From NCBI GenBank assembly GCA_013314815.1, contig JABUEY010000028.1:1-36481 (forward strand): a DNA stretch of 36,481 bases, given 5' to 3'. Source of the DNA: Syntrophobacteraceae bacterium (GTDB lineage Bacteria > Desulfobacterota > Syntrophobacteria > Syntrophobacterales > Syntrophobacteraceae). The notes beneath the pieces were generated by a model. That model made no database searches. It had not been told where the DNA came from and was given only the letters and a program-made list of their open reading frames with translations. A program made the translations under genes and the position numbers. Shown one piece after another: positions 20,645-34,463 of the stretch (position 1 is the stretch's first letter; every line of letters begins with the position of its first letter).

Positions 20645-21736
20645 TCATGTCCGGCCTCCTCCCGCCCTGAGTCTCTCGATGCGCTCCATGGCGATCTTCC
20701 TGTAAGTTTCCATCATGTGAGACGGCGGAGCGGACCTCTCGTCATCGGGCTTCAACTGGAGGCGAACAGCCTTTTCCGGGCAGGTAGGCACGCAAAGTCC
20801 GCAGCCGATGCATCGGTCTCGGAGAATCCTTGCCGATTCCCCGGACATTTCAACGGCGTCCATCTGGCAGCGTTCCGAGCAGACGCCACAACCGGAGCAA
20901 AGCTCTGCATCCACCATCGCAAAGTAGCCGGAGGCAACGTATCGCGAGGGGTGAGGGAGGCTCTTCAGGTTCTTGAGGATCTGGCAGCAGCATCCGCAGC
21001 AGACGCAGATGTTGACGACCTTTTGGGAATTGGATGGCTGGAGCACCAGTCCGGTCTTCTCGGCTTCATCGAGTATCGCCACGGCGTCTTCGCGGCTGAT
21101 GGCCCTTCCCAGCCCGTTCTCTTCATAATATTGGGCGCCGATGCCGAAGACAAGGCACGTTTCCAGTGGTCTGCCGCATCCCCGCCCCGTAATGAGCTGT
21201 TCTTTTCTGCAGATACAGGGAGCCACGACGATCTTGTCCTGTTCCATCACGATCTGCATGGCCTGTTCATAAGGCATAACCGCCTCTTCCGCGGGCAGTG
21301 CCCTCGATATCGGAATGGTGCGAAGCTGTGGTGTCCCTGACAGATAGTTCTTTTTGAAAAAATAGGGCAGGTATTCGTTGGTGTCGCGAATCAATTCCGG
21401 GTCGAGGTCGTTCACATGGTATTCCCATATGCCGACAACGAATTGTGCGGCCATGTATCGGGCCTGATTCCCCTTGCGGATTCGGAAGATGAGCCCTTTT
21501 CTGGAAAGGGTTTCGAGATGTTGTGCGGTCTCCAGGGGATCCCGTCCGATGCGGGAGGCAATTTCTTCGGGGCTTTCGGGTTTCATGTTCAGGTGCACCG
21601 CAAGAGCCGCCTCCTCGGGAGTAAACAGCCTGCGCAGGATCCGCATTTCAACTCCCGTCGATGTTCCTGGAAATCCTGCGGGCAGCCGATCGAGATACCG
21701 GGCAAGATCCCGGTATACTGGGTCAGCGTCGTTCAT
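20645..21736 (-). CDS. Winged-helix/4Fe-4S ferredoxin fusion protein
   Basis: 363 residues from the ATG at 21736 (TGGAGGCTCAACGAT upstream). Residues about 35-95 resemble a winged helix (LFTPEEAALAVHL, EEIASRIGRDPLETAQHLET, KGLIFRIRKGNQ). The middle has cysteine groups CICRKEQ (174-180), GCGRPLETC (187-194) and an unusual CVCCGCCC stretch (244-251). The end is a 2x[4Fe-4S] ferredoxin: CSGCGVCSERC (280-290) and CIGCGLCVPTCP (309-320). Family members are common in sulfate reducers and other strict anaerobes, and are usually annotated only as ferredoxins. It may couple redox state to DNA binding or serve as an electron carrier for a neighbour such as the DUF39 enzyme; both are inference. Confidence 0.85.
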   Translation of the reverse strand: MNDADPVYRDLARYLDRLPAGFPGTSTGVEMRILRRLFTPEEAALAVHLNMKPESPEEIASRIGRDPLETAQHLETLSRKGLIFRIRKGNQARYMAAQFVVGIWEYHVNDLDPELIRDTNEYLPYFFKKNYLSGTPQLRTIPISRALPAEEAVMPYEQAMQIVMEQDKIVVAPCICRKEQLITGRGCGRPLETCLVFGIGAQYYEENGLGRAISREDAVAILDEAEKTGLVLQPSNSQKVVNICVCCGCCCQILKNLKSLPHPSRYVASGYFAMVDAELCSGCGVCSERCQMDAVEMSGESARILRDRCIGCGLCVPTCPEKAVRLQLKPDDERSAPPSHMMETYRKIAMERIERLRAGGGRT

Positions 21737-21777
21737 ATCGTTGAGCCTCCATATAGTGGAAAGCAATGGAACCGGAC

Positions 21778-22887: not shown

Positions 22888-23298
22888 ATGTCCGAGAAGG
22901 AAACCCAGGCAGTCGAGCAACAGGCTCCGGCCGCCGAACCGATGAAGAACCCCTACATCGTGAACTTCTGTAAGGTGCTTGTGGAAAAGAAGAACGAAAA
23001 CGTCCAGGGCGACGAACTCAAGCAACTCCTGAACGATATGTATCGTCTTTTCGAAAACATGCTGGGGCAGAACATGATCGATGCTCTCCCCGAAAAATTG
23101 CGCAAGGAATACCTCGAACTCTGCAATGACCTCAGCAAGCTGAGCTATGAAAGAATCGCGGAAATATTCGACAAGAACATTCCTCATTATGAAGAGATCA
23201 TGAAGAAGACCATGAGGCAGTTTGCCGAGATCTTCATGAAGAACAAGGTGTTCAATATCGCGGATTACCCGGTTGCCCTGGAAACGGCCTCTTCGTAA
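22888..23298 (+). CDS. Small helical protein of unknown function
   Basis: 136 residues, starting after GAGAGGAAG. The N-terminal 20 residues are low-complexity (Ala, Glu, Gln, Pro). The rest is strongly helical with Met, Lys and Glu (LKQLLNDMYRLFENMLGQNM, IAEIFDKNIPHYEEIMKKTM). It has no signal peptide or membrane segment and only two cysteines. The regular heptad-like pattern suggests a helical bundle or oligomer. It is not a family I can name. It stands divergent to the nitrilase run and 216 bases before another small gene; it may be an independent transcript. Confidence 0.75.
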   Translation: MSEKETQAVEQQAPAAEPMKNPYIVNFCKVLVEKKNENVQGDELKQLLNDMYRLFENMLGQNMIDALPEKLRKEYLELCNDLSKLSYERIAEIFDKNIPHYEEIMKKTMRQFAEIFMKNKVFNIADYPVALETASS

Positions 23299-23514: not shown

Positions 23515-23781
23515 ATGCAGGAAGACAAAACCATATGTCCGCATTGCGGTAAGAAGATGAACAAGTGGAGAACGCCGGCGTATTCGACATGGACCGCCGA
23601 ATACTTTTATGTCTGTTTTAACGACGAATGTTCCTATTATGTGCGGGGATGGAAGCACATGAAGGAATCCATGGAAGTGGGCTGTTCCTACAGGCATCGT
23701 CTGGACCCGGAAACAGGGGCGACAGGCCCGCTGCCCGTCTGGTCGCCGGATGCCTGTAAGTCGGATATCCTCCCGGATTAG
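23515..23781 (+). CDS. Small zinc-ribbon protein
   Basis: 88 residues from the ATG at 23515, which has an AGGAGA site; a 22-residue upstream extension has no site. Cys8 and Cys11 (ICPHCGKKM) and Cys34 and Cys39 (VCFNDEC) form a CxxC...CxxxxC zinc finger similar to Ogr/Delta-type fingers. YYVRGWKHMK and the aromatic residues after it are typical of short zinc-binding regulators or adaptors. It ends at 23781, with a two-way terminator 46 bases downstream. The role is unknown; nucleic-acid or protein binding is likely. Confidence 0.75.
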   Translation: MQEDKTICPHCGKKMNKWRTPAYSTWTAEYFYVCFNDECSYYVRGWKHMKESMEVGCSYRHRLDPETGATGPLPVWSPDACKSDILPD

Positions 23782-23827: not shown

Positions 23828-23859
23828 AAATAAACCAGGCTCGAGGGCCTGGTTTATTT
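23828..23859. terminator. Two-way Rho-independent terminator
   Basis: AAATAAACCAGGC and GCCTGGTTTATTT form a perfect 13 bp stem around TCGAGG, flanked by T-rich tracts on both strands. It serves the zinc-ribbon gene on the plus strand and the YkgJ-type gene on the minus strand, whose TAA stop lies inside the stem. Confidence 0.92.
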
Positions 23860-24630
23860 TTCCCTGCGCAGTTTGAGTGCCGGTTCGTTGAACAGAAAGA
23901 ACCGGAGCCACTTGAAGCCGAGCGTCAACAGTGATTCATCGTCTGCCAGGGAATCGAGTTCTTCGCGGTCGAATTCAAAAAGCTGCAGAAAACGGCTGCC
24001 CAGGACAAAATCCCTGAGCCTGTCCAGGTTGTAGGCGGACATGAAAAACATCTGCTGTTGTTTGGATGAAAGGGGAGCCCCGTTTCTCAGTGCGGGATGG
24101 GTGACGATCTCCATCCACAGGTTGTTGAAACCATCGTAAGATTCAAGGCCCTGGTCTTCGAGCCATTCGGCCGTCGACCATGCGCGGTCTTCCCGAAATC
24201 CCAGGCAGTGGTCTTCCTTCAAAACGAAAAAATCTTCGATGACTTTCCCGTGAAGACGATGCATCCTGGACGCCCTGGCTATGGGATAGATCCTGCAAGC
24301 CGCGGGGCGGTCGGCATAGACCTGACAACCCGAAGAGGAAACAAACGGGCAGGTCCTGCGCTCATTGTCCGTCATTCTCAGGTAGACAACGGGCAGGTTG
24401 CGCCGCTCATCGCAGGAGGTTTCCGTGTACCGGTCCAGGAATTCGCCGGACTGGATCTGCAGGTGGTTCTTGAGGCGCAGGATATCGTACGGGGTCAGCA
24501 TAAGCCTCAAATCCCGGCAGCATTCGGTGAAACAGGGGACTCCAGGATGGCATGCAAAGGTGAAGCGCCCGTCGACAAGCGGTTGCAGCATGTCCTGGAT
24601 GGATTCAGGAGCGGTTTCTTCGATCTTCAT
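23854..24630 (-). CDS. YkgJ-family CxxxCC protein, second copy
   Basis: 258 residues. The signature is FACHPGVPCFTECCRD with Cys27, Cys33, Cys37 and Cys38, then LTPYDILRLKNHL. A second Cys group (CPFVSSSGCQVYADRPAACR) lies near residues 95-115. This matches the YkgJ (CxxCxxCC) family, thought to bind zinc or an iron-sulfur cluster; its function is not established. It is clearly a paralogue of the gene just upstream, sharing the PCFTxCCRD, LTPYDILRL and YxxRPxACRxYP patterns, so a tandem duplication is likely. The ribosome site is weak, and the gene may be translated by coupling. It is the last gene of the qmo-linked run and ends in the two-way terminator. Confidence 0.82.
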   Translation of the reverse strand: MKIEETAPESIQDMLQPLVDGRFTFACHPGVPCFTECCRDLRLMLTPYDILRLKNHLQIQSGEFLDRYTETSCDERRNLPVVYLRMTDNERRTCPFVSSSGCQVYADRPAACRIYPIARASRMHRLHGKVIEDFFVLKEDHCLGFREDRAWSTAEWLEDQGLESYDGFNNLWMEIVTHPALRNGAPLSSKQQQMFFMSAYNLDRLRDFVLGSRFLQLFEFDREELDSLADDESLLTLGFKWLRFFLFNEPALKLRREK

Positions 24631-24677
24631 TGTTTTCTCACAGAAAGAAGTTCGGCATGTCGCCGCATCCCCGGTTC

Positions 24678-25406
24678 TCAGACAACCTTGTACAATTCTT
24701 CCATCTGGCTTCGAACATAACGAAAAGCAAGGTGGAGCAGGGCTTCATCGTCTTCTCTTACGCGGCGCAGTGTTTCGTCGTCCACGTCGTAGAAGGTCTG
24801 GAATCGAGGATCGTTTACGATTTCGATGAAACGGTCGATGTCGTAGGCAAGGAACAGGACTCTGCCCAAGCCGGGGTTCATCTGCGATGACGGCTGAAAG
24901 TCAGGCGGGACAACCTGCAGAAACGCCCGTTCCATCTCCTCGTAAGGCCTGACTCCCTGGCTTTCCAGCCATGCGCCCACCGTATGAGAAGCGGGTTCGT
25001 TCAGGCCCAGACACCTCTCTTTTCCTGCAATGGGCATGTATTCCCCGCTCCGTGAAGCCACGTCGAGCGGGTACATGCGGCATGCCCATGGGCGGTTGTC
25101 GTATACACGGCATCCTGAATCCGTTACGAACCTGCAGTTGAGCGTCTCGGGGTCCATTTCGAGCTGCACAACGGGGATATGGGTTACCCGGGCCAGGAAA
25201 TGCCGAGTATATCGCTCGAGCACTTCAGTGGAACTGATCTTCAAGGCCCTGCGAAGTCTCAGAATGTCGTAGGGGGTGAGATAGATATTCACGTCCCTGC
25301 AGCACTGAGTGAAGCAGGGCAGGGTATCGTGGCAGGCAAAACGGAACCGCGAATCTTCCGTCAGCACCTGCTGTTCGTTGTCCGGCTGGTTCGAACTCAT
25401 GTCCAT
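24678..25406 (-). CDS. YkgJ-family CxxxCC protein, first copy
   Basis: 242 residues. The start is put at the ATG at 25406 (AGGAAGAGGA), with ATG 25400 nearly as good; a longer frame to 25544 would run into the upstream gene. It carries FACHDTLPCFTQCCRD (Cys25, Cys31, Cys35, Cys36), LTPYDILRLRRAL and CRFVTDSGCRVYDNRPWACR. These are metal-ligand patterns of the YkgJ family. It lies 11 bases after the small cysteine-rich gene and 47 bases before its paralogue, so all three are likely co-transcribed with the Qmo genes. The position suggests a role in metal-centre assembly or redox chemistry of APS reduction; that is inference. Confidence 0.82.
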   Translation of the reverse strand: MDMSSNQPDNEQQVLTEDSRFRFACHDTLPCFTQCCRDVNIYLTPYDILRLRRALKISSTEVLERYTRHFLARVTHIPVVQLEMDPETLNCRFVTDSGCRVYDNRPWACRMYPLDVASRSGEYMPIAGKERCLGLNEPASHTVGAWLESQGVRPYEEMERAFLQVVPPDFQPSSQMNPGLGRVLFLAYDIDRFIEIVNDPRFQTFYDVDDETLRRVREDDEALLHLAFRYVRSQMEELYKVV

Positions 25407-25417
25407 TCCTCTTCCTG

Positions 25418-25681
25418 TTATTTCCCCACCATGGATGCGGTGAACTTCCTGAAATTCGGGTTGCCGAAGATCAGCTTCTGAACGATGGAGAAAGACTGCG
25501 AATCGTTGCAGGCAATGAAGGTGCACATGCAGTCTCGATTGCATCGGCTGCAGTGATAGTCCTCCTCGAGCAAAGCCCCGCAGGAGCAGAAAGGCTCCAT
25601 GACCAGTTCTTCGCCCTCCCAGTGAGCCAGCAGATAGTCCTGCCCACGGCTTTTCAATTCATCGATCGTAATGGTTTCCAA
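25418..25681 (-). CDS. Small cysteine-rich protein downstream of the Qmo-HdrD genes
   Basis: 87 residues, starting at TTG (25681) with AAAGGA upstream; an in-frame stop just before rules out a longer form. Seven cysteines lie within residues 32-58 (CSCG, CSRC, CMC, C), enough for one or two metal sites. The C-terminal third (VQKLIFGNPNFRKFTASMVG) is helical. The family is not recognised, but the gene sits tightly between the HdrD-like subunit and the YkgJ-type genes, so it may be an accessory protein of that complex. Confidence 0.75.
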   Translation of the reverse strand: METITIDELKSRGQDYLLAHWEGEELVMEPFCSCGALLEEDYHCSRCNRDCMCTFIACNDSQSFSIVQKLIFGNPNFRKFTASMVGK

Positions 25682-25774: not shown

Positions 25775-26938
25775 TCATGGGAGAGCCGCGGCCAGGAGTT
25801 CGGCGATGTCCTTGATGTCGAGTACTTCCTGCCTGTCCAGGCTCTTGCATGCATCCGTCAGCATATTGACGCAATAAGGGCATGAGGTGGCCAGGACCTG
25901 GGCTCCGCGATTGCAGGCATCGACGATCCGAAGTTCAGCAAACCTTTCCCCCATGGGAATTTCGGCCCAGATCCGTCCGCCTCCTCCTGCACAGCAGAGG
26001 CTGCGCTCCCTGGTGCGCTCCAGTTCGTTGACCGCGCCGCCGCAGGCCTTTTCCAGAAGTTCCCGCGGAGCATCGTAGATTCCGGAGTGTCTCCCCAGGT
26101 AACACGGATCATGAAAAGCGACGTTCTGTTCCGTCCCCGCGGGGAAGGAAAGCCTTCCATCCTCGATCAACTGCGCCAGCAGCTGCGCATAGTGAACAAC
26201 TTCCCATTCGCCGCCCATTTCGGGGTATTCGTTCTGGAAAGTCCAGAGACAGTGTGGGGATGTGGTGATGATCTTCGCTACCCCTTTTGCTTTGAAGAGG
26301 TCGATGTTCGACTGGGCGAGCTTCTGGAACAGCTCCTCGTCTCCCACCTTGCGCACGCTCTCCGCACAGCAGCTCTCCTCGGCTCCAATCACCCCGTAGC
26401 TCACTCCGGCATGGTTCAGCAGCCGGACTATGCTCCGTGCGATTTTGGTACTGCGCGGATCGTAACAGGAATGACAGCAGACAAAGAGGAAGTATTCCTT
26501 GTCCGGTCCGAATGAAGGGACGTCCAGGCCCTGCTGCCAGTCCACGCGCTTTTCCCGCGGTCCGGACCAGGGATTGCCGTTGGCGTGAGCTCCGCCGAGG
26601 ACGGGTCTGAGGTTTGCCGGGGGCATTCCCGCTCCGACAATGCTCGAACGCATAGCCCTGACGTTGTCGATGATTTTCACGCCACGAGGGCAGTTGGACT
26701 GGCACATGCCGCAGGTGGAGCAGGCGAACAGGGACTTTTCGTCTTCGAATCCTTCCATGCCCATCTGCCCGAGGCGCTGCATGTGCCGGATGTTGAAGTG
26801 TTCACTGGTTTCGCCGGGAACCAGGCGCCACGGACAGAGATTCGTGCACAGACCGCACTGCATGCACCAGTTGATGGTCTCCGCACCCATTTCGGCAATG
26901 TAATCTCTCATTTCAAGAGAAACATTCTTCGGTTCCAT
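25775..26938 (-). CDS. HdrD-like Fe-S subunit replacing QmoC
   Basis: 387 residues. Two [4Fe-4S] motifs stand at the N-terminus: CMQCGLCTNLC (25-35) and CSTCGMCQSNC (73-83). Two CCG-type cysteine domains follow: about 150-250 (CCHSC...ESCCAES) and about 270-375 (DPCYLGRHSG, SLCCAGGGGR, SCPYC). This is the layout of HdrD, or of HdrC fused to HdrB. QmoC of classical sulfate reducers has the HdrC part plus a cytochrome-b-like membrane part; none is present here. The gene follows qmoB by 74 bases with an AAGGAG site, so it should serve as the third Qmo subunit. It would pass electrons between QmoAB and an unknown partner. A similar hdrBC replacement is known in Gram-positive sulfate reducers. Confidence 0.88.
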   Translation of the reverse strand: MEPKNVSLEMRDYIAEMGAETINWCMQCGLCTNLCPWRLVPGETSEHFNIRHMQRLGQMGMEGFEDEKSLFACSTCGMCQSNCPRGVKIIDNVRAMRSSIVGAGMPPANLRPVLGGAHANGNPWSGPREKRVDWQQGLDVPSFGPDKEYFLFVCCHSCYDPRSTKIARSIVRLLNHAGVSYGVIGAEESCCAESVRKVGDEELFQKLAQSNIDLFKAKGVAKIITTSPHCLWTFQNEYPEMGGEWEVVHYAQLLAQLIEDGRLSFPAGTEQNVAFHDPCYLGRHSGIYDAPRELLEKACGGAVNELERTRERSLCCAGGGGRIWAEIPMGERFAELRIVDACNRGAQVLATSCPYCVNMLTDACKSLDRQEVLDIKDIAELLAAALP

Positions 26939-27012: not shown

Positions 27013-29229
27013 TCAGTATCCTTTATATGGGTTGGGCCCCAACTCTTCGATCCGGGCTGCAAAGCCGTCGAGTATCTCCGGAAGACGATGATAATCGGTG
27101 ATGGAGACCTGTTCGAGGCGCACGCGGTCGGATTCGAGCACGAGCCGGTTCAGGGTTTCCTGGATCTTGGACATCCTTATGTTGGCCAGCTCACTTCCCT
27201 TGATGAAGTGGCACTGGTAATCGTCACCGTGTTTGCAGCCGAGGAGCAAAATCCCGTCGATACCCTTGGAAAGGGCGTCGGCGATCCACACCAGGTTCAT
27301 GGACCCGAGGCACCTCACAGGTATGATACGCACCCAGGGATTATAGGAAAGGCGCCTGATACCGGCCATGTCCAGGGCGGGATAGGCATCGTTCTCACAA
27401 GCCAGCACCAGTATTCTGGGCTTCTCTTCGTACTCGTCGGGCACGTTGATCTTCTTGATCACGTTGCCGATCATACCGACGGAATAGTTCCTGAACGAAA
27501 TGATCCTCTCGGGGCAAGCCCCCATGCAGACTCCACATCGCCTGCATCGTGTCGGGTTGGGCAGCGGATTTGCCTTCTCGTCTTCGTTGATGGCTCCGAA
27601 GGGACATTCCTCGGTGCATCTCTTGCACTGTGTGCAACGCTGCATGAAAAATTCCGGGTAGCTCAGGTCTCCGGATCGAGGATGGACCGCCTTGCCTGCC
27701 GAAAGCATTTCGATGCACTGAATCGCCTTCAGCGCCGCGCCCGTGGCATCTTCAACCGCCTGCGAATAATCCATCGGAGCCCGTACGGATCCAGCGGGGT
27801 ATATGCCCGTACGTCGGGATTCGTAAGGAAAGCAGATAAAATGGGAATCCGGGAAACCATGGCTCAAAGCCGGCAGTTCGGGGCCCTGCCTGTATTGAAG
27901 ATTGAGGATATCGGAAACAAGAATCGTGTCTGGAGCATAAGCGGCTTCTTCCTCGCCTTCCTTGGGTGACTGCGCCTTGAAAGGTTCACCGAAAGAAGTG
28001 ACGGGCACCATACCGTTGGCCAGAACGACCAGGTCGAGGCTTTCCGTCAGGACGGAAGAGCCGGTGAGGACGTCATTGGCGGCAACCACCAGGCCGCCGG
28101 AGCCGTCATCCTCGATCCCTTCGATGTCGCCTCTTATGAAAAAGACTCCTTCTTTCTGGAGTTCCTTGTACAGGAATTCATAGGTGCCGTGGGCACGCAT
28201 GTCCCGGTAGAAGATATAGACGGGAGTCTGTGGATTTTCAGATTTGAAGTACATGGCCTGTTTGAGCGATTCCACGCAGCAGGCCGAAGAACAGTAGGGC
28301 AGATGCCGGGCGTCCCTGGAGCCCGCACAGAGCAAAAAGGCCACACTGCCCACCGGCTGCCCGTTGGACGGTCTTTCGACCTTTCCGGATTTGAACATAA
28401 TCTCGAGCTGGGAAGCCGTGACCACGTCGGGATATTTGGCGAAGCCGAAGGAATCGAGCTTCTCCGGGCTGTAGGGGACAGAACCCGCCGCAAGCACAAC
28501 GGCTCCCACACGTTCCATGGCCTCGCTTCCGTTTTGGCGAATCGTGACGTCGAACATGCAGGGCGCCCCGGCAATGGATGCCACCCGGGAGCCGGTGTAG
28601 ACCCTGATGGAGGGATCCCCGGTGACTTCGGAGGTGAGGGCATCGAGGTTCGGATCCTCGAGTTCAGTGTACGGGGGACGAACGGGAGGCAGCTTATGGA
28701 CGTCCTTGAGATAGCCGCCCAACTGCTCCTCTTTTTCCACCAGAACCACCTCATATCCTGCCCTGGCTGTCTCACGGGCCGCCGTCATGCCTGCAAGGCC
28801 TCCCCCGACCACCAGGACCTTTCTGCTGAGATCGTCGGCAAGGAACGGATCCGGGGGAAGCATTTCCACGGCCTTGACAAGCCCCATGCGCAGGGCGTCC
28901 TCGGCCAGCATCCGGGTGTCTTCTTCCCCCGCGGGATGGCACCAGGCGACCTGTTCTCTCAGGTTGACCCGCTCCATGACCCTGTCGGCGGGAAAGGTGA
29001 AGGAATCGGTCATCACGCGGGGCGAGCAGGCCGCGATGACGATGGTGTCCATGCCCTGGTCCAGGTCCCGGCGTATGATCGAAACACCCTCGTCGCTGCA
29101 CAAAAAGGGATGCCGCCTGCAGGCGGCAACGGAAAACTCGTCTGCAGCCACGGCTTCCAGCGCATTCACGTCAAGAGCGTCTCCAATGCCGCATCCGGTA
29201 CATATATAGACTCCGATTCGTTTTTCCAT
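27013..29229 (-). CDS. qmoB: QmoB: HdrA-like FAD/Fe-S subunit with MvhD domain
   Basis: 738 residues from the ATG at 29229; its GGAGG site lies inside the end of qmoA, and the genes are four bases apart. An N-terminal stretch with CTGCG (10-14), a FAD-binding VVGGGLAGMTAA (140-151), and later a ferredoxin pair (CTQCKRCTEECP and CRRCGVCMGACP, roughly 560-620) match HdrA/QmoB. The last 110 residues, with PVRCLGSMN and LLGCKHGDDYQC, are an MvhD-type [2Fe-2S] domain. QmoB passes electrons within the quinone-interacting membrane-bound oxidoreductase complex, which is thought to feed APS reductase. Length and domains are as expected. It is co-transcribed with qmoA and the HdrD-like gene. Confidence 0.95.
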   Translation of the reverse strand: MEKRIGVYICTGCGIGDALDVNALEAVAADEFSVAACRRHPFLCSDEGVSIIRRDLDQGMDTIVIAACSPRVMTDSFTFPADRVMERVNLREQVAWCHPAGEEDTRMLAEDALRMGLVKAVEMLPPDPFLADDLSRKVLVVGGGLAGMTAARETARAGYEVVLVEKEEQLGGYLKDVHKLPPVRPPYTELEDPNLDALTSEVTGDPSIRVYTGSRVASIAGAPCMFDVTIRQNGSEAMERVGAVVLAAGSVPYSPEKLDSFGFAKYPDVVTASQLEIMFKSGKVERPSNGQPVGSVAFLLCAGSRDARHLPYCSSACCVESLKQAMYFKSENPQTPVYIFYRDMRAHGTYEFLYKELQKEGVFFIRGDIEGIEDDGSGGLVVAANDVLTGSSVLTESLDLVVLANGMVPVTSFGEPFKAQSPKEGEEEAAYAPDTILVSDILNLQYRQGPELPALSHGFPDSHFICFPYESRRTGIYPAGSVRAPMDYSQAVEDATGAALKAIQCIEMLSAGKAVHPRSGDLSYPEFFMQRCTQCKRCTEECPFGAINEDEKANPLPNPTRCRRCGVCMGACPERIISFRNYSVGMIGNVIKKINVPDEYEEKPRILVLACENDAYPALDMAGIRRLSYNPWVRIIPVRCLGSMNLVWIADALSKGIDGILLLGCKHGDDYQCHFIKGSELANIRMSKIQETLNRLVLESDRVRLEQVSITDYHRLPEILDGFAARIEELGPNPYKGY

Positions 29230-29233
29230 GAGA

Positions 29234-30502
29234 CTACCTCCTGAACGTCGCCTGAATGGCCTTGAGAGCTGCAGCGGTGGCATCCTGAACACTTGAAGCA
29301 ACATCAACCGGCTTCTTGACGCACCCGGCGGGGATGATGCCCGGTCCGGCCCGGTCGGGAAGAACAAATCCGTTTTCGTCGCATGCGGTCCGGGAAGGAA
29401 GTGGATCTTCGGCGGTGGATGGAACCATGCCGGTGGCCAGCACCACCAGGTCGAACTTCTCCCTGAGAATCTTTCCCGTGGCCTGGTCTTCAACCTGGAC
29501 GGTTACAAGGCCTGTGGAGGGATCTTCGATGATCTCTCCGGGTTTGCCCTTGATCAGGGTGACCCGTTCGTCTTCCTGGACCCGGTTCGAGAAGGCTTCG
29601 TATTTGCCCAGCGCACGAATATCGATATAGAAGATCGTCGCGCGGGCATCGGGATCCTGGTCCAGCAGGTATGTCGTCTGCTTCAGGGAGGCGAGGCAGC
29701 AGACTCCCGAACAGTAGGGGAGATGGTTTTCGTCTCTTGATCCGGCGCATTGCACGAAGGCGACACTCTTGACGTCGGATCCGTCCGACGGGCGAGCGAT
29801 GCGGCCGCCTGTGGGTCCGCTGTTGGCCGCCAGGCGTTCCATCATCACGTTGGTGATCACGTTCCTGTTCCTGCCGAAACCGTAGTAAGAGATGCGGCCG
29901 GCATCATAGGGCTTCCATCCGGTGGCCCAGATCACGGCACCGACCTTCAGGTCGAAGGTCTGCGGCTGCATGTCGAAGTCCACGGCGCCGTAGGGACATG
30001 CCGACTCGATGGCCTTCGCTTCGGGGCTGCCCACCACCTCCGGCGCAACGACGTAGCGCATGGGGAAGGCGAATTCATGAGGCAGGTAAGCGGACTTCCT
30101 GGAACTCAGGCCGTAGTTGAACGGATCGGGGATCTCGGTTGTCGCCGCCTCAGCGCAAAGACCGCACCCCGTACACTTCTCGTTGACGTACCGGGGATGG
30201 AGCCTTACGGTCACATCGAAGTTCCCGGGTTCCCCATCGATGCTTTCCACCTGGGCCATGGTGAAGAAGCGGATGAGCGGATTGCTGCGAATCCGGCGGA
30301 AGTTGATTTCGAGACCGCAGTTGGGCGGGCAGAGCTTTGGGAAGTACTTGTTCATTCGAGCCACCCGGCCGCCCAGGTAGGGCTCCCGCTCGACGATGTA
30401 CGTTTGAAAGCCCGCCTCGGCGGCTTCTATGGCGGCACTCAGCCCGCTCATACCGCCTCCGACGACGAGAATGCTCCGGTTCGTTTTCAGCGCATCGGCC
30501 AT
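29234..30502 (-). CDS. qmoA: QmoA: HdrA-like FAD/Fe-S subunit
   Basis: 422 residues with a GGAGG site ahead of the ATG. FAD-binding VVGGGMSGLSAA is at 13-24. Cys58 and Cys62 (CPPNCG) and CTGCGLC at 110-116 are cluster ligands, with another ACPYG further on. FVQCAGSRDENHLPYCSGVC is the conserved HdrA-family cysteine block. QmoA is the smaller flavoprotein of the Qmo complex, thought to interact with AprAB. A factor-independent terminator lies between aprA and this gene, and no convincing -10 box was found upstream, so transcription may depend on read-through or a weak promoter. It is followed directly by qmoB. Confidence 0.96.
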   Translation of the reverse strand: MADALKTNRSILVVGGGMSGLSAAIEAAEAGFQTYIVEREPYLGGRVARMNKYFPKLCPPNCGLEINFRRIRSNPLIRFFTMAQVESIDGEPGNFDVTVRLHPRYVNEKCTGCGLCAEAATTEIPDPFNYGLSSRKSAYLPHEFAFPMRYVVAPEVVGSPEAKAIESACPYGAVDFDMQPQTFDLKVGAVIWATGWKPYDAGRISYYGFGRNRNVITNVMMERLAANSGPTGGRIARPSDGSDVKSVAFVQCAGSRDENHLPYCSGVCCLASLKQTTYLLDQDPDARATIFYIDIRALGKYEAFSNRVQEDERVTLIKGKPGEIIEDPSTGLVTVQVEDQATGKILREKFDLVVLATGMVPSTAEDPLPSRTACDENGFVLPDRAGPGIIPAGCVKKPVDVASSVQDATAAALKAIQATFRR

Positions 30503-30633: not shown

Positions 30634-30666
30634 AAAAAAACCTCCGGGTGCAAGAGCACCCGGAGG
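30634..30666 (-). terminator. Rho-independent terminator after aprA
   Basis: On the minus strand CCTCCGGGTGC pairs with GCACCCGGAGG (11 bp, loop TCTT) and is followed by TTTTTTTATG. It lies 22 bases after the aprA stop, and 131 bases before qmoA starts. Confidence 0.93.
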
Positions 30667-30687
30667 CGGATTCTTCACATCCTCACA

Positions 30688-32592
30688 TTACAGGATGTTG
30701 ACCACCGGAACCTTCTTCATGGTCCATTCGCCGGTCTTGGGATCCCAGACGGAGTTCACGAAGCACTTCCAGTTCGCTTCGTCCATGTCGGGGAAGTCGG
30801 CGCGGAAGTAGTAGCCGGGCCAACGGCTTTCCTCGCGGAACATCACGTGGCGCAGGTGGCTTTCGGCTATCCACATGCGGTGGGTGTTCTCCCAGCAGCG
30901 CAGGAGCTCATGGAGATCCTCGGCAGCCAGTTTCTCATGGTCTTCCTTCAGCATGCCGAGCAGCTCGAGGCCTCTGTCGAGGAGTGCCTTGTTGGTGGTG
31001 AAGCAGGCGGAAACCCCGGCGCAGTACTCGTCCATGATCTTCTGGAGACGGAACATGAACATCTTGGGCTTGATGAAGTTGGGGTTGATATCCGGATCGC
31101 TGGACATCTTGGCGAATTCCTGGAACCTGTCGAGAGGAGCCAGGATGGTCTTCTTCATCTGTTCAACTACGGCATCATCGACGGTGGGAGCGGTGTTGTT
31201 GTCGAGGATGTATGCAATGGCGCCCTTGGCGGCGATGCGGCCTTCAGCGTGGGAACCGGAGGAGAACTTGTGGCTGGAGGCTCCGGAGCCGTCGCCTGCG
31301 GTGAAGAGACCCTTGACGGTGGTCATGTGATTGTACACACCGATGGGTTCCCACTGCTTCCTGTACTCGGCAGGCATGGCATCCTCGGGACCGCAAACCC
31401 ACGCACCGGAGGCACCGGAGTGCGAGCCGATGAAGTAAGGTTCGGCTGCCGCGATCTCAGAAGGCTTCTCTTCGGGCTGAATGTTCTGGCCTGCCCAGAG
31501 AATGGCCTGGCTGATGGTCATATCCAGGAAGTCTTCCCATGCTTCGCTCTCAAGTTCCTTCATCTTCTTCTTGAAGGCCTTGGGATCGTCTTTGTACTTG
31601 GCGGCCAAGTTGGCAATGGCTTCTTCAGTCTTCATGAAGATGGGGCCCTTGCCGGAGTAGACGTCTTCCATACCCAGCCAGTTGCGCAGGTTGGCGGGGA
31701 TGGGTTTGGCCAGGCCGTAGGGAGCCCACTTGGGCAGTTCGTTGGCGCGGGTCACCATGTATTCCTCACCCATGGCATTGACTGCACGGGACTTGAACAG
31801 GAGGAACCATGCGCCGACCGGTCCATAACCGTCCTTGAAACGAACGGGGATGAACCGCACTTCCTGGCAGGTCATTTCCGCGCCGGCGCGGATGGTGAAG
31901 TAAGCGGTGGAACCGGCGTTCCAGGGGGGATACCATGCGCGACCGAGACCTTCACCCACCGAACGGGGGCGGAATACGTGGACAGCGCCACCCATGAGGG
32001 CGATGGTCGCCTTGGCCTTGAATACGTAAAACTTGTTCTCGCGCACGCTGAAGCCCACGCCGCCGATGCACTTGTCACCGTCCATGAGGGGCTCGACAAC
32101 GAAAACACGCTCCAGGATCTCGCCCTTGTCGCCCAAGGTGGCCATGGCGTTCTTTGCTGCTTCGGCCACGATCACCTTGTAGGACTCGCCGTTGATCATG
32201 ATCTGCCAGCGGCCTTCGTTTACGTACTCGCCCTGGGCATCTTTCCAGATGGGGAGTCCCCACTTTTCAAAAAGATGAACCGACGAATCAACGTGACGGG
32301 CAATGTCGTAAACCAGGTCTTCACGGGAGATGCCCATGAGATCCTGCCGTACGTACTTTACGTAATCTTCGAGGGTGTTCTTGCCCTTGGCATAGCCAAT
32401 GTACTGGTTGATGGCGGAAAGACCCATGGCGACGGCGCCGGAACGATCCATGGCGGCCTTGTCGACCACGGTTACCTTCAAGCCATGCTTCTTTGCCCAG
32501 TAGGCAGCTTCGAAAGCAGCGCCACAGGCGGACATGCCACCGCCGATGATCAGGAGATCGGTATCGACTACTACGGTTTCAAAATTTGCCAT
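30688..32592 (-). CDS. aprA: AprA: APS reductase alpha subunit
   Basis: 634 residues, a normal length for AprA, with a strong site TAAGGAGGTGACGAT. The FAD-binding motif GGGMSACGAAFEAA is at 17-30, and KVTVVDKAAMDRSGAVAMG is the fumarate-reductase-type flavin fold continued. SHSGASGAWVCGPEDAMPAEY and DGSGASSHKFSSGSHAEGR contain family-typical active-site glycine and histidine residues. AprA uses FAD to reduce APS to sulfite and AMP in the cytoplasm, with electrons delivered through the two clusters of AprB. It lies 21 bases after aprB. A long open frame on the opposite strand (30847-32832) is a composition shadow. Confidence 0.98.
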   Translation of the reverse strand: MANFETVVVDTDLLIIGGGMSACGAAFEAAYWAKKHGLKVTVVDKAAMDRSGAVAMGLSAINQYIGYAKGKNTLEDYVKYVRQDLMGISREDLVYDIARHVDSSVHLFEKWGLPIWKDAQGEYVNEGRWQIMINGESYKVIVAEAAKNAMATLGDKGEILERVFVVEPLMDGDKCIGGVGFSVRENKFYVFKAKATIALMGGAVHVFRPRSVGEGLGRAWYPPWNAGSTAYFTIRAGAEMTCQEVRFIPVRFKDGYGPVGAWFLLFKSRAVNAMGEEYMVTRANELPKWAPYGLAKPIPANLRNWLGMEDVYSGKGPIFMKTEEAIANLAAKYKDDPKAFKKKMKELESEAWEDFLDMTISQAILWAGQNIQPEEKPSEIAAAEPYFIGSHSGASGAWVCGPEDAMPAEYRKQWEPIGVYNHMTTVKGLFTAGDGSGASSHKFSSGSHAEGRIAAKGAIAYILDNNTAPTVDDAVVEQMKKTILAPLDRFQEFAKMSSDPDINPNFIKPKMFMFRLQKIMDEYCAGVSACFTTNKALLDRGLELLGMLKEDHEKLAAEDLHELLRCWENTHRMWIAESHLRHVMFREESRWPGYYFRADFPDMDEANWKCFVNSVWDPKTGEWTMKKVPVVNIL

Positions 32593-32613: not shown

Positions 32614-33057
32614 TTATTTCTTCAGTGTGGGAAGCTCGGCGGCCCCGGTGGAAGCCGGCTCAGTACAGAGCACGGGGCTCTTGATGTCTTCGGTGCCGGT
32701 ACTGTACCCTGCAAGGGGTTCGGCCTTCCCTTCCTGCGTGGTCCGGATGGGGAACTTGAATCGCTTTACCTGACCGCTGCGGAACTTAACGGTCCACATG
32801 ATATCCTCGGAGCCGCGCAGGGGAACCACTGAAGCTCCCATGGGAACGAAGTCGGCATAGCCTCTCACGTCAACTGCCTGTTGGGGGCAAATCTTCACGC
32901 AGTTGTAGCATTCCCAGCACATTTCGGGTGCCCTGTTCCATGCTTTCATTTTTTCCTTGTCCAGAACCATCAGGTCGTTCGGACAAATGTACATACATGC
33001 TGTCTTGTCCTGCCCTTTGCAGCCATCGCATTTCTCAAGGATTACATAACTTGGCAT
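32614..33057 (-). CDS. aprB: AprB: APS reductase beta subunit
   Basis: 147 residues; the site TACGGAGGTGAAGTT precedes the ATG. Two [4Fe-4S] motifs are visible: Cys10, Cys13, Cys21 and Cys25 (CDGC...CMYIC), and Cys47, Cys50, Cys53 and Cys57 (CWECYNCVKIC). The sequence after VDVRGYADFVPMG forms the beta sheet and the C-terminal arm that wraps AprA in known structures. The final 30 residues are rich in Thr, Glu and Pro. It carries electrons to the AprA flavin. It starts 173 bases after sat ends; that gap contains imperfect inverted repeats (CTGAAA..TTTCAG, CATCTG..CAGATG) that might affect transcription, but no clear terminator. Confidence 0.98.
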   Translation of the reverse strand: MPSYVILEKCDGCKGQDKTACMYICPNDLMVLDKEKMKAWNRAPEMCWECYNCVKICPQQAVDVRGYADFVPMGASVVPLRGSEDIMWTVKFRSGQVKRFKFPIRTTQEGKAEPLAGYSTGTEDIKSPVLCTEPASTGAAELPTLKK

Positions 33058-33230: not shown

Positions 33231-34463
33231 TTATTTCTTCTTGACATCACCGGTTGCTGCGCCGTGAAGCTTGATTTCGACCTTCTCTTCGAGACCGGCG
33301 TAGTATGCCTGCAGGACTTTGACGACTTCGGGCCTGGAGAATTCCTTCGGCAGTTCTCCACCTTCCGAAAGAGTCTTTCTCACCATCGTGCCGGACAGGA
33401 GGAGACGGTCTTCCTTGCCATGAGGACATGTTCTCATGGATGCCATGCCGCCGCACTTGAAGCAGTGGAAGGTCCAGTCGATCTTGAGGGGCTGCAGGAT
33501 CAGGCTGCCTTCGGGAATCTCTTCGAAGATCTTCTGGGCGTCAAACGGGCCGTAATAGTCGCCCACACCGGCGTGGTCACGGCCGACGATAAGATGGCTG
33601 CAGCCATAATTCTGACGGAACACGGCGTGGAGCAGGGCTTCACGGGGGCCCGCGTAGCGCATCTCTGCGGGATAGCCGCCCTGGATCACGGTGTCTTTCA
33701 CAAAATAGTTCTCCACGAGCACATCGATGGCCTTTACGCGGACGTCGGCGGGGATATCGCCTGCTTTAAGCTTCCCGACCAGCTGGTGGATATAGAGGCC
33801 GTCCATGACTTCGACGGCAATCTTGGCAAGGTATTCGTGGCTGCGGTGCATGGGGTTGCGCAGCTGAAGGGCTGCAACGGTCTTCCAACCCTTTTCGTCG
33901 AACATCTTCCTGGCTTCGGCGGGGCGCTGATAGATGCCTTTGAACTGGGTGGGGTAGAAGCTTTCACTGATCACCTTGACGGGGCCGGCAAGGTTGATTT
34001 CCTTCTGAGACATGACCTTGGCGACGCCCGGATGACCCTCGGCGTCGTTGGTCCAGAACACGCTCTTGCATTCGTGTTCCTTGTCAATCTTGTACTTTTC
34101 GGTAACCTTCATGGTACCGAGGATTTCGTCGTTTTCGACATCCAGAAGAGCGACTTCTTCGTTGGCACCGATGCTGTCGGCAAGGCTCTTGTCGGCGGAT
34201 ACCGTGATGGGGATCGGCCAGAATGTGCCGTCAGCCATCAGGTACTTGTCACAGACACCCTTCCAGTCGTCATAGCCCATAAATCCATCGAGAGGCGTGA
34301 AAGCGCCGATACCGAGCATGATGAGATCCGAGGCTTCGCGGCTTGTAATCGGGACTGTCTTGAGGGTCTTGGCCTTTTCCTTTTCGGCGGCCAAAGCCGC
34401 GCCTTCGAGCAACAACGGTTTGAGCTTTCTGTCTTTACCATGGGGCGGAACTAGCTTGGACAT
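33231..34463 (-). CDS. sat: Sat: ATP sulfurylase
   Basis: 410 residues with an AAGGAGAG site. [11 protein letters not shown] at 200-210 is the ATP/sulfate-binding QxRNPxHxxH motif, and GRDHAGVG at 294-301 is the second. CFKC and CPHG (Cys334, Cys337, Cys346, His348) form the zinc site known in dissimilatory Sat. The enzyme makes APS and pyrophosphate from ATP and sulfate, the first step of dissimilatory sulfate reduction in the cytoplasm. It is the first gene of the sat-aprBA-qmo block and has a strong promoter. The open frame on the other strand (33213-34454) is a shadow. Confidence 0.98.

Follow-up and report, generated by a model that had tools for sequence, protein, structure and literature searches.

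The window, i.e. the whole stretch of 36,481 nucleotides of Syntrophobacteraceae DNA that was analysed, carries on its minus strand a run of genes, those for APS reduction included, in the order sat-aprB-aprA, hairpin, qmoA-qmoB-hdrD-small7C-ykgJ1-ykgJ2, hairpin. APS reduction is a key step in microbial sulfate respiration, and the enzymes involved are usually taken to be just Sat, AprBA and Qmo. The features of the locus, including two genes of the opposite strand, are the following:

33231..34463, minus strand: sat, ATP sulfurylase (from sequence; upstream of aprBA also in related loci)
32614..33057, minus strand: aprB, APS reductase beta subunit (from sequence; adjoins aprA and is kept in related loci)
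30688..32592, minus strand: aprA, APS reductase alpha subunit (TIGR02061, 949 bits, cut-off 641.75)
30640..30667, minus strand: terminator-like hairpin between aprA and qmoA (stem of 12 bp with a T run behind it; fold z -7.92)
29234..30502, minus strand: qmoA, HdrA-like flavoprotein (from sequence and position; synteny kept)
27013..29232, minus strand: qmoB, HdrA-like plus FlpD (PF02662, FAD and Fer4 domains; adjoins qmoA/aprBA in relatives too)
25775..26938, minus strand: HdrD-like protein, 387 aa, Fe4S dicluster and two CCG domains (PF02754, PF13183)
25418..25681, minus strand: small seven-cysteine protein (small7C), 87 aa, TTG start (predicted zinc-ribbon-like, CxCG...CxxC and invariant C58)
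24678..25406, minus strand: YkgJ1 (group A), about 242 aa, 8 Cys (PF03692, 40.0 bits; CX5CX3CC)
23854..24630, minus strand: YkgJ2 (group B), 258 aa, 9 Cys (PF03692, 38.5 bits; CX5CX3CC, eight-cysteine type)
23828..23859, both strands: bidirectional terminator-like hairpin of ykgJ2 and the Ogr-like gene (fold z -4.75 on the minus and -4.62 on the plus strand)
23515..23781, plus strand: Ogr/Delta-like zinc-ribbon protein, about 88 aa (PF04606, 60.4 bits, cut-off 26.3; convergent with ykgJ2)
22888..23298, plus strand: DUF5663 protein, 136 aa (PF18908, 103.6 bits)

The genes hdrD, small7C, ykgJ1 and ykgJ2 are separated by gaps of 93, 11 and 47 nt in turn, and the best start of YkgJ1 is the ATG at 25406, with the ribosome-binding site GGAAGAGGA. 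The hairpin at 23828-23859 (13 bp, -22.7 kcal/mol) includes the stop codon of ykgJ2; it is absent from the list of a consensus terminator scan, probably because its T run sits within the stem. The hairpin at 30640-30667 between aprA and qmoA is very strong, which suggests that aprBA and qmo form at least partly separate transcripts. A sequence-only reading of this DNA had placed three cysteine-rich reading frames behind the qmo-HdrD genes, and all three are present there, on the minus strand and within 23854-25681. It had also taken the two YkgJ genes for paralogues, and this is confirmed by their identity of 38% and by PF03692 scores above the Pfam cut-off of 23 bits in both.

Relatives of the locus occur in Desulfacinum, Desulfosoma and other Syntrophobacteraceae, and the whole module is present in the cultured species Desulfacinum infernum. 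The order HdrD-small7C-ykgJ1-ykgJ2 is beyond chance, because it is kept in 22 of 25 related loci, with the small protein at about 39-57% identity. The HdrD-like protein of the window (25775-26938) stays below every curated NCBIfam cut-off. In relatives among the Syntrophobacteria (L223-L231), a soluble HdrC-HdrB fusion (HdrD-like) stands behind qmoAB and replaces the membrane subunit QmoC, and in other lineages the same place is occupied by weak matches to the HdrD model, which are probably QmoC. Elsewhere in the window, positions 20645-21766 encode a protein in which a possible winged-helix region is followed, near the C-terminus, by two 4Fe-4S ferredoxin motifs; it has a homologue in L105.

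The YkgJ branch and its relationship to FliB

YkgJ1 and YkgJ2 belong to a distinct branch of PF03692, whose members are 240-300 aa long and display CX5CX3CC and eight cysteines. In an alignment of 45 proteins (A2), eight cysteines are invariant (C27-X5-C33-X3-C37C38, C93, C101, C111 and C134), and those of CX5CX3CC are invariant in alignments of both 45 and 83 sequences. The window proteins pass the Pfam gathering score of the PF03692/YkgJ cysteine-cluster proteins; however, the model of that family covers only 85 positions, and the YkgJ1/YkgJ2 branch differs from the family at large in being long, in its CX5CX3CC motif and in its tie to aprBA. PF03692 was matched in 9 of 14 control genomes, and the source assembly (4.06 Mb) contains three PF03692 genes, two of them in the window.

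The YkgJ tandem pair goes back to a single ancient duplication, and its order has been kept since. In a FastTree phylogeny of 191 proteins, a single branch (support 96) divides all 51 first tandem genes from all of the second genes, and one change of tandem position is the minimum that this tree requires. YkgJ1 of the window is nested in the clade of first genes (group A) and YkgJ2 in that of second genes (group B). Group A also includes the single YkgJ copies that other phyla have in aprBA-Ogr-YkgJ operons.

The sole characterised member of PF03692 that we found is FliB. In Salmonella, it is a SAM-dependent protein lysine methyltransferase (flagellin lysine N-methylase), with eight conserved cysteines and an essential [4Fe-4S] cluster whose ligands are in a CX4CX3CC motif (PMC8598068). 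A profile-profile comparison of A2 with a FliB alignment, built from NF038110 matches in Desulfotomaculia, gave a probability of 90% (E 1.6e-6), and the cysteine-rich part alone reached 93.6% (E 2e-7). FliB and the YkgJ branch have eight conserved cysteines each in a homologous cysteine-rich region, in which the first cysteine, C-X3-CC and the cysteines of CPF, GC and CR/K-x-YP/FP are in register, whereas the eighth cysteine is offset and the spacing of the first differs (CX5CX3CC against the published CX4CX3CC). FliB is also longer (about 370-400 aa, against 240-300 aa in the YkgJ branch), and only the latter is linked to apr/qmo. The C-terminal parts of the two profiles gave no significant match (p 0.035-0.15, with one of five column-shuffled controls scoring higher), so that a homology of the C-terminal halves, which had been suggested by eye, is unsupported by profile comparison. 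With the NF038110 model of FliB (cut-off 85 bits) the window proteins gave no match; only four of the 45 branch members have any match to it (best E 0.0016) and none reaches the cut-off. On these comparisons, we regard the YkgJ branch as homologous to FliB in the cysteine domain, yet we do not class it as FliB.

A sequence search of solved structures with YkgJ1 gave no match. The AlphaFold model of YkgJ2 (pLDDT 94.0) and the structure model of the small seven-cysteine protein (pLDDT 93.3) were built only from window and genome-contig sequences, and fold searches of solved structures with them yielded no credible match (best Z 2.3 for YkgJ2; best VIA Z 5.1, Tex, for the small protein). The lack of a fold match for such models is no proof of a new fold and would neither favour nor rule out any mechanism.

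Association with APS reductase and membership of the gene set

Among 395 Desulfobacterota genomes, 156 possess both the YkgJ branch and aprA, 5 aprA only, 11 YkgJ only and 223 neither (A2 profile at E < 1e-50 for YkgJ; TIGR02061 at E < 1e-150 for aprA). For Desulfotomaculia, a class sampled around one Desulfotomaculum genome, the corresponding figures in 113 genomes are 64, 9, 3 and 37, counted by hand and with three genomes of fragmented aprA scored as aprA-positive. Fisher tests of the YkgJ branch against aprA were extreme, but they ignore shared ancestry. In other phyla, aprA exceeded the cut-off in 14 of 15 genomes, all of which had been chosen for carrying the YkgJ branch; the aprBA carriers sampled are bacteria other than sulfur oxidisers. 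Several exceptions among the Desulfobacterota are incomplete assemblies. Those that are fairly complete and apparently real comprise aprA without YkgJ in G081 and G156, and YkgJ without aprA in G282, G245 and G399. Many genomes of the Desulfotomaculia encode, in addition, a second full-length AprA-like protein that scores about 350-470 bits, well below the aprA cut-off.

The YkgJ branch and aprA are also often physically linked. A YkgJ-branch gene is located within about 10 kb in 36 of the 80 aprA loci sampled across the phylum, with two copies in 8, although some of these loci were shortened by contig ends; by our estimate, about 2% would be expected by chance, given one to four copies per 2-5 Mb genome. 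When named genomes were scanned with YkgJ sequences only, about 42 of the best 79 loci contained apr/qmo genes (43 were flagged, one of them on a weak match). The arrangement aprA-Ogr-YkgJ, within the aprBA operon, occurs in Zixibacteria, Bacteroidota, Kryptoniota, Ignavibacteria and Acidobacteria, and other recurring arrangements are aprA-YkgJ-qmoA, QmoC/HdrD-YkgJ, and YkgJ divergent from aprB. Part of the window's own family has a second, divergent aprBA with a separate YkgJ pair directly behind it (L099-L102, L280); the AprA of these loci is about 53-54% identical to that of the window, and at least one genome, G022, possesses both kinds of aprBA. Desulfovibrionaceae have a single YkgJ copy, with none near aprA in the five loci read, and several copies in Bacillota are unlinked to apr/qmo. 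The distribution that would speak against an accessory role, in which most homologues would be remote from qmo/apr, without synteny and in organisms that do not reduce sulfate, was looked for and is not what we found; instead, the YkgJ branch follows aprA across phyla and is often linked to apr/qmo.

Of 191 loci, 58 have an Ogr-like gene; YkgJ is present in 53 of these and apr/qmo genes in 48, and in other phyla the Ogr-like gene is situated between aprA and ykgJ. The DUF5663 gene adjoins it in 16 loci. The convergent small gene of the window matches the Ogr/Delta zinc-finger family well above the cut-off of PF04606, yet it is cellular and linked to aprBA, not to phage late genes. In several phyla, the aprBA operon includes a conserved cellular gene for a zinc ribbon of the Ogr/Delta type, a type known from phages.

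The cross-phylum core of the set consists of YkgJ-A/B and the Ogr-like zinc-ribbon gene. Narrower in distribution, the seven-cysteine protein is an add-on and not part of this core, because in the wider phylum (matches in 32 of 395 genomes) strong matches are confined to a handful of families, and because G031 (L098) has a YkgJ pair behind HdrD without small7C. It is encoded in 26 of 40 genomes searched and in 41 of 56 genomes of its class. No Pfam or NCBIfam family was matched by the 87-aa protein, a sequence search of solved structures gave only weak matches to CDCA7 (E 0.26), and a nucleotide-pattern scan of genome contigs with this protein alone as query found no relative, the full alignment having diverged too far for a scan of this kind. 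Among the invariant positions of the protein are C32, C44, C47 and C58, with C34 nearly invariant, a pattern that would fit a zinc ribbon with an additional cysteine. The idea put forward in the sequence-only reading, that APS reduction has an accessory set not described before, is therefore well supported, whereas the membership it proposed (the seven-cysteine protein and two YkgJ proteins) has to be revised: the Ogr-like gene, which lies just outside the region it had singled out, belongs to the core, and the seven-cysteine protein does not extend beyond Syntrophobacteria and a few other families. The roles which that reading suggested (assembly, protection or electron transfer) stay conjectural.

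Possible roles in APS reduction

Because the YkgJ pair and APS reductase occur together in many bacterial phyla, the two tandem eight-cysteine proteins probably help to build or modify this enzyme. On balance, we lean towards seeing YkgJ1 and YkgJ2 as dedicated accessory factors of AprBA-Qmo, together with the Ogr-like zinc ribbon and, in the lineage of the window, small7C, acting through Fe-S maturation or protein modification. From the sequences, we infer that YkgJ and the small proteins bind metal. By analogy with the similar motif of FliB, each YkgJ would hold an Fe-S cluster on CX5CX3CC and might act in the cytoplasm on apo or nascent subunits of AprBA or Qmo, where it could either deliver or repair the many [4Fe-4S] clusters of these enzymes or modify one of their side chains by a FliB-like methyl transfer. 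The small zinc-ribbon proteins (Ogr-like and seven-cysteine) may be adaptors through which the client is bound. In its most specific form, YkgJ-A/B would be a [4Fe-4S]-dependent, FliB-like methyltransferase acting on AprBA or Qmo, and APS reduction in most sulfate-reducing bacteria would then need an overlooked post-translational modification; we regard this as conceivable but doubtful.

The YkgJ proteins might instead be Fe-S proteins that carry electrons to Qmo or AprBA, e.g. as the proposed second donor in Qmo confurcation. Their genes are contiguous with those of redox subunits, CX5CX3CC resembles a cluster-binding motif, and Qmo may require a second electron donor (PMC4215793; PMC10553843). 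However, the one studied relative, FliB, is a methyltransferase and thus a modifying enzyme, and the copy number and position of YkgJ vary, unlike those of fixed subunits, with many copies unlinked. For these reasons, we think that Fe-S maturation or a FliB-like modification is likelier than electron transfer, which appears rather unlikely. A service to sulfate respiration as a whole (to Dsr, or as a general Fe-S supply under sulfide), which would bring YkgJ near apr/qmo only through gene clustering, also seems unlikely to us. It would agree with the occurrence of solitary YkgJ copies, and aprA and dsr usually co-occur in sulfate-reducing organisms, but it is specifically with apr/qmo that YkgJ is repeatedly linked, in distinct arrangements, and a clustering of the neighbours of solitary copies revealed no recurrent partner family around the 20 loci read.

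It is quite improbable that the Ogr-like zinc finger and YkgJ form a regulatory module which senses iron, sulfide or redox state and controls the expression of apr/qmo. Ogr/Delta proteins are activators of phage transcription and the PF04606 score is far above the cut-off, but the similarity is restricted to the zinc ribbon, and a place within the aprBA operon across phyla would be less usual for a regulator. Finally, YkgJ could be a generic metal-chelating protein without a function in APS reduction, its linkage reflecting lineage inertia. PF03692 is indeed widespread, as the control genomes show, and our association tests were uncorrected for ancestry, but the association with aprA holds in two separate phyla, and linkage to apr/qmo was regained repeatedly, in unrelated phyla and in differing gene orders, which argues against mere inertia. 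This explanation is already disfavoured, and we consider it very improbable.

Dedicated accessory factors of AprBA-Qmo remain our preferred reading. A gene family that follows aprA across phyla and returns to its operon suggests an overlooked accessory step, and this bears on the production of active AprBA-Qmo in foreign hosts, on distinguishing decayed apr loci from functional ones in metagenomes, and on what PF03692 proteins do more widely. In D. vulgaris, qmoD is reportedly the promoter-distal gene of qmoABC (Zane et al. 2010). Like the YkgJ genes of the window, it is an uncharacterised gene that ends a qmo operon, but no YkgJ copy adjoins aprA in the five Desulfovibrionaceae loci. No function for the YkgJ branch was found described in the literature; subscription papers lay outside the search, so an earlier notice is possible. 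In the accessible part of a large synteny study of apr/qmo (PMC10504309), no such accessory genes are reported. The available text on Ca. Thermonerobacter gives the order sat-aprBA-hyp-hyp-qmoC, with two conserved hypothetical genes for which it states no family, function or wider pattern (PMC6338057); their place corresponds, by position alone, to that of the Ogr-like and YkgJ genes in L258, L259 and L262.
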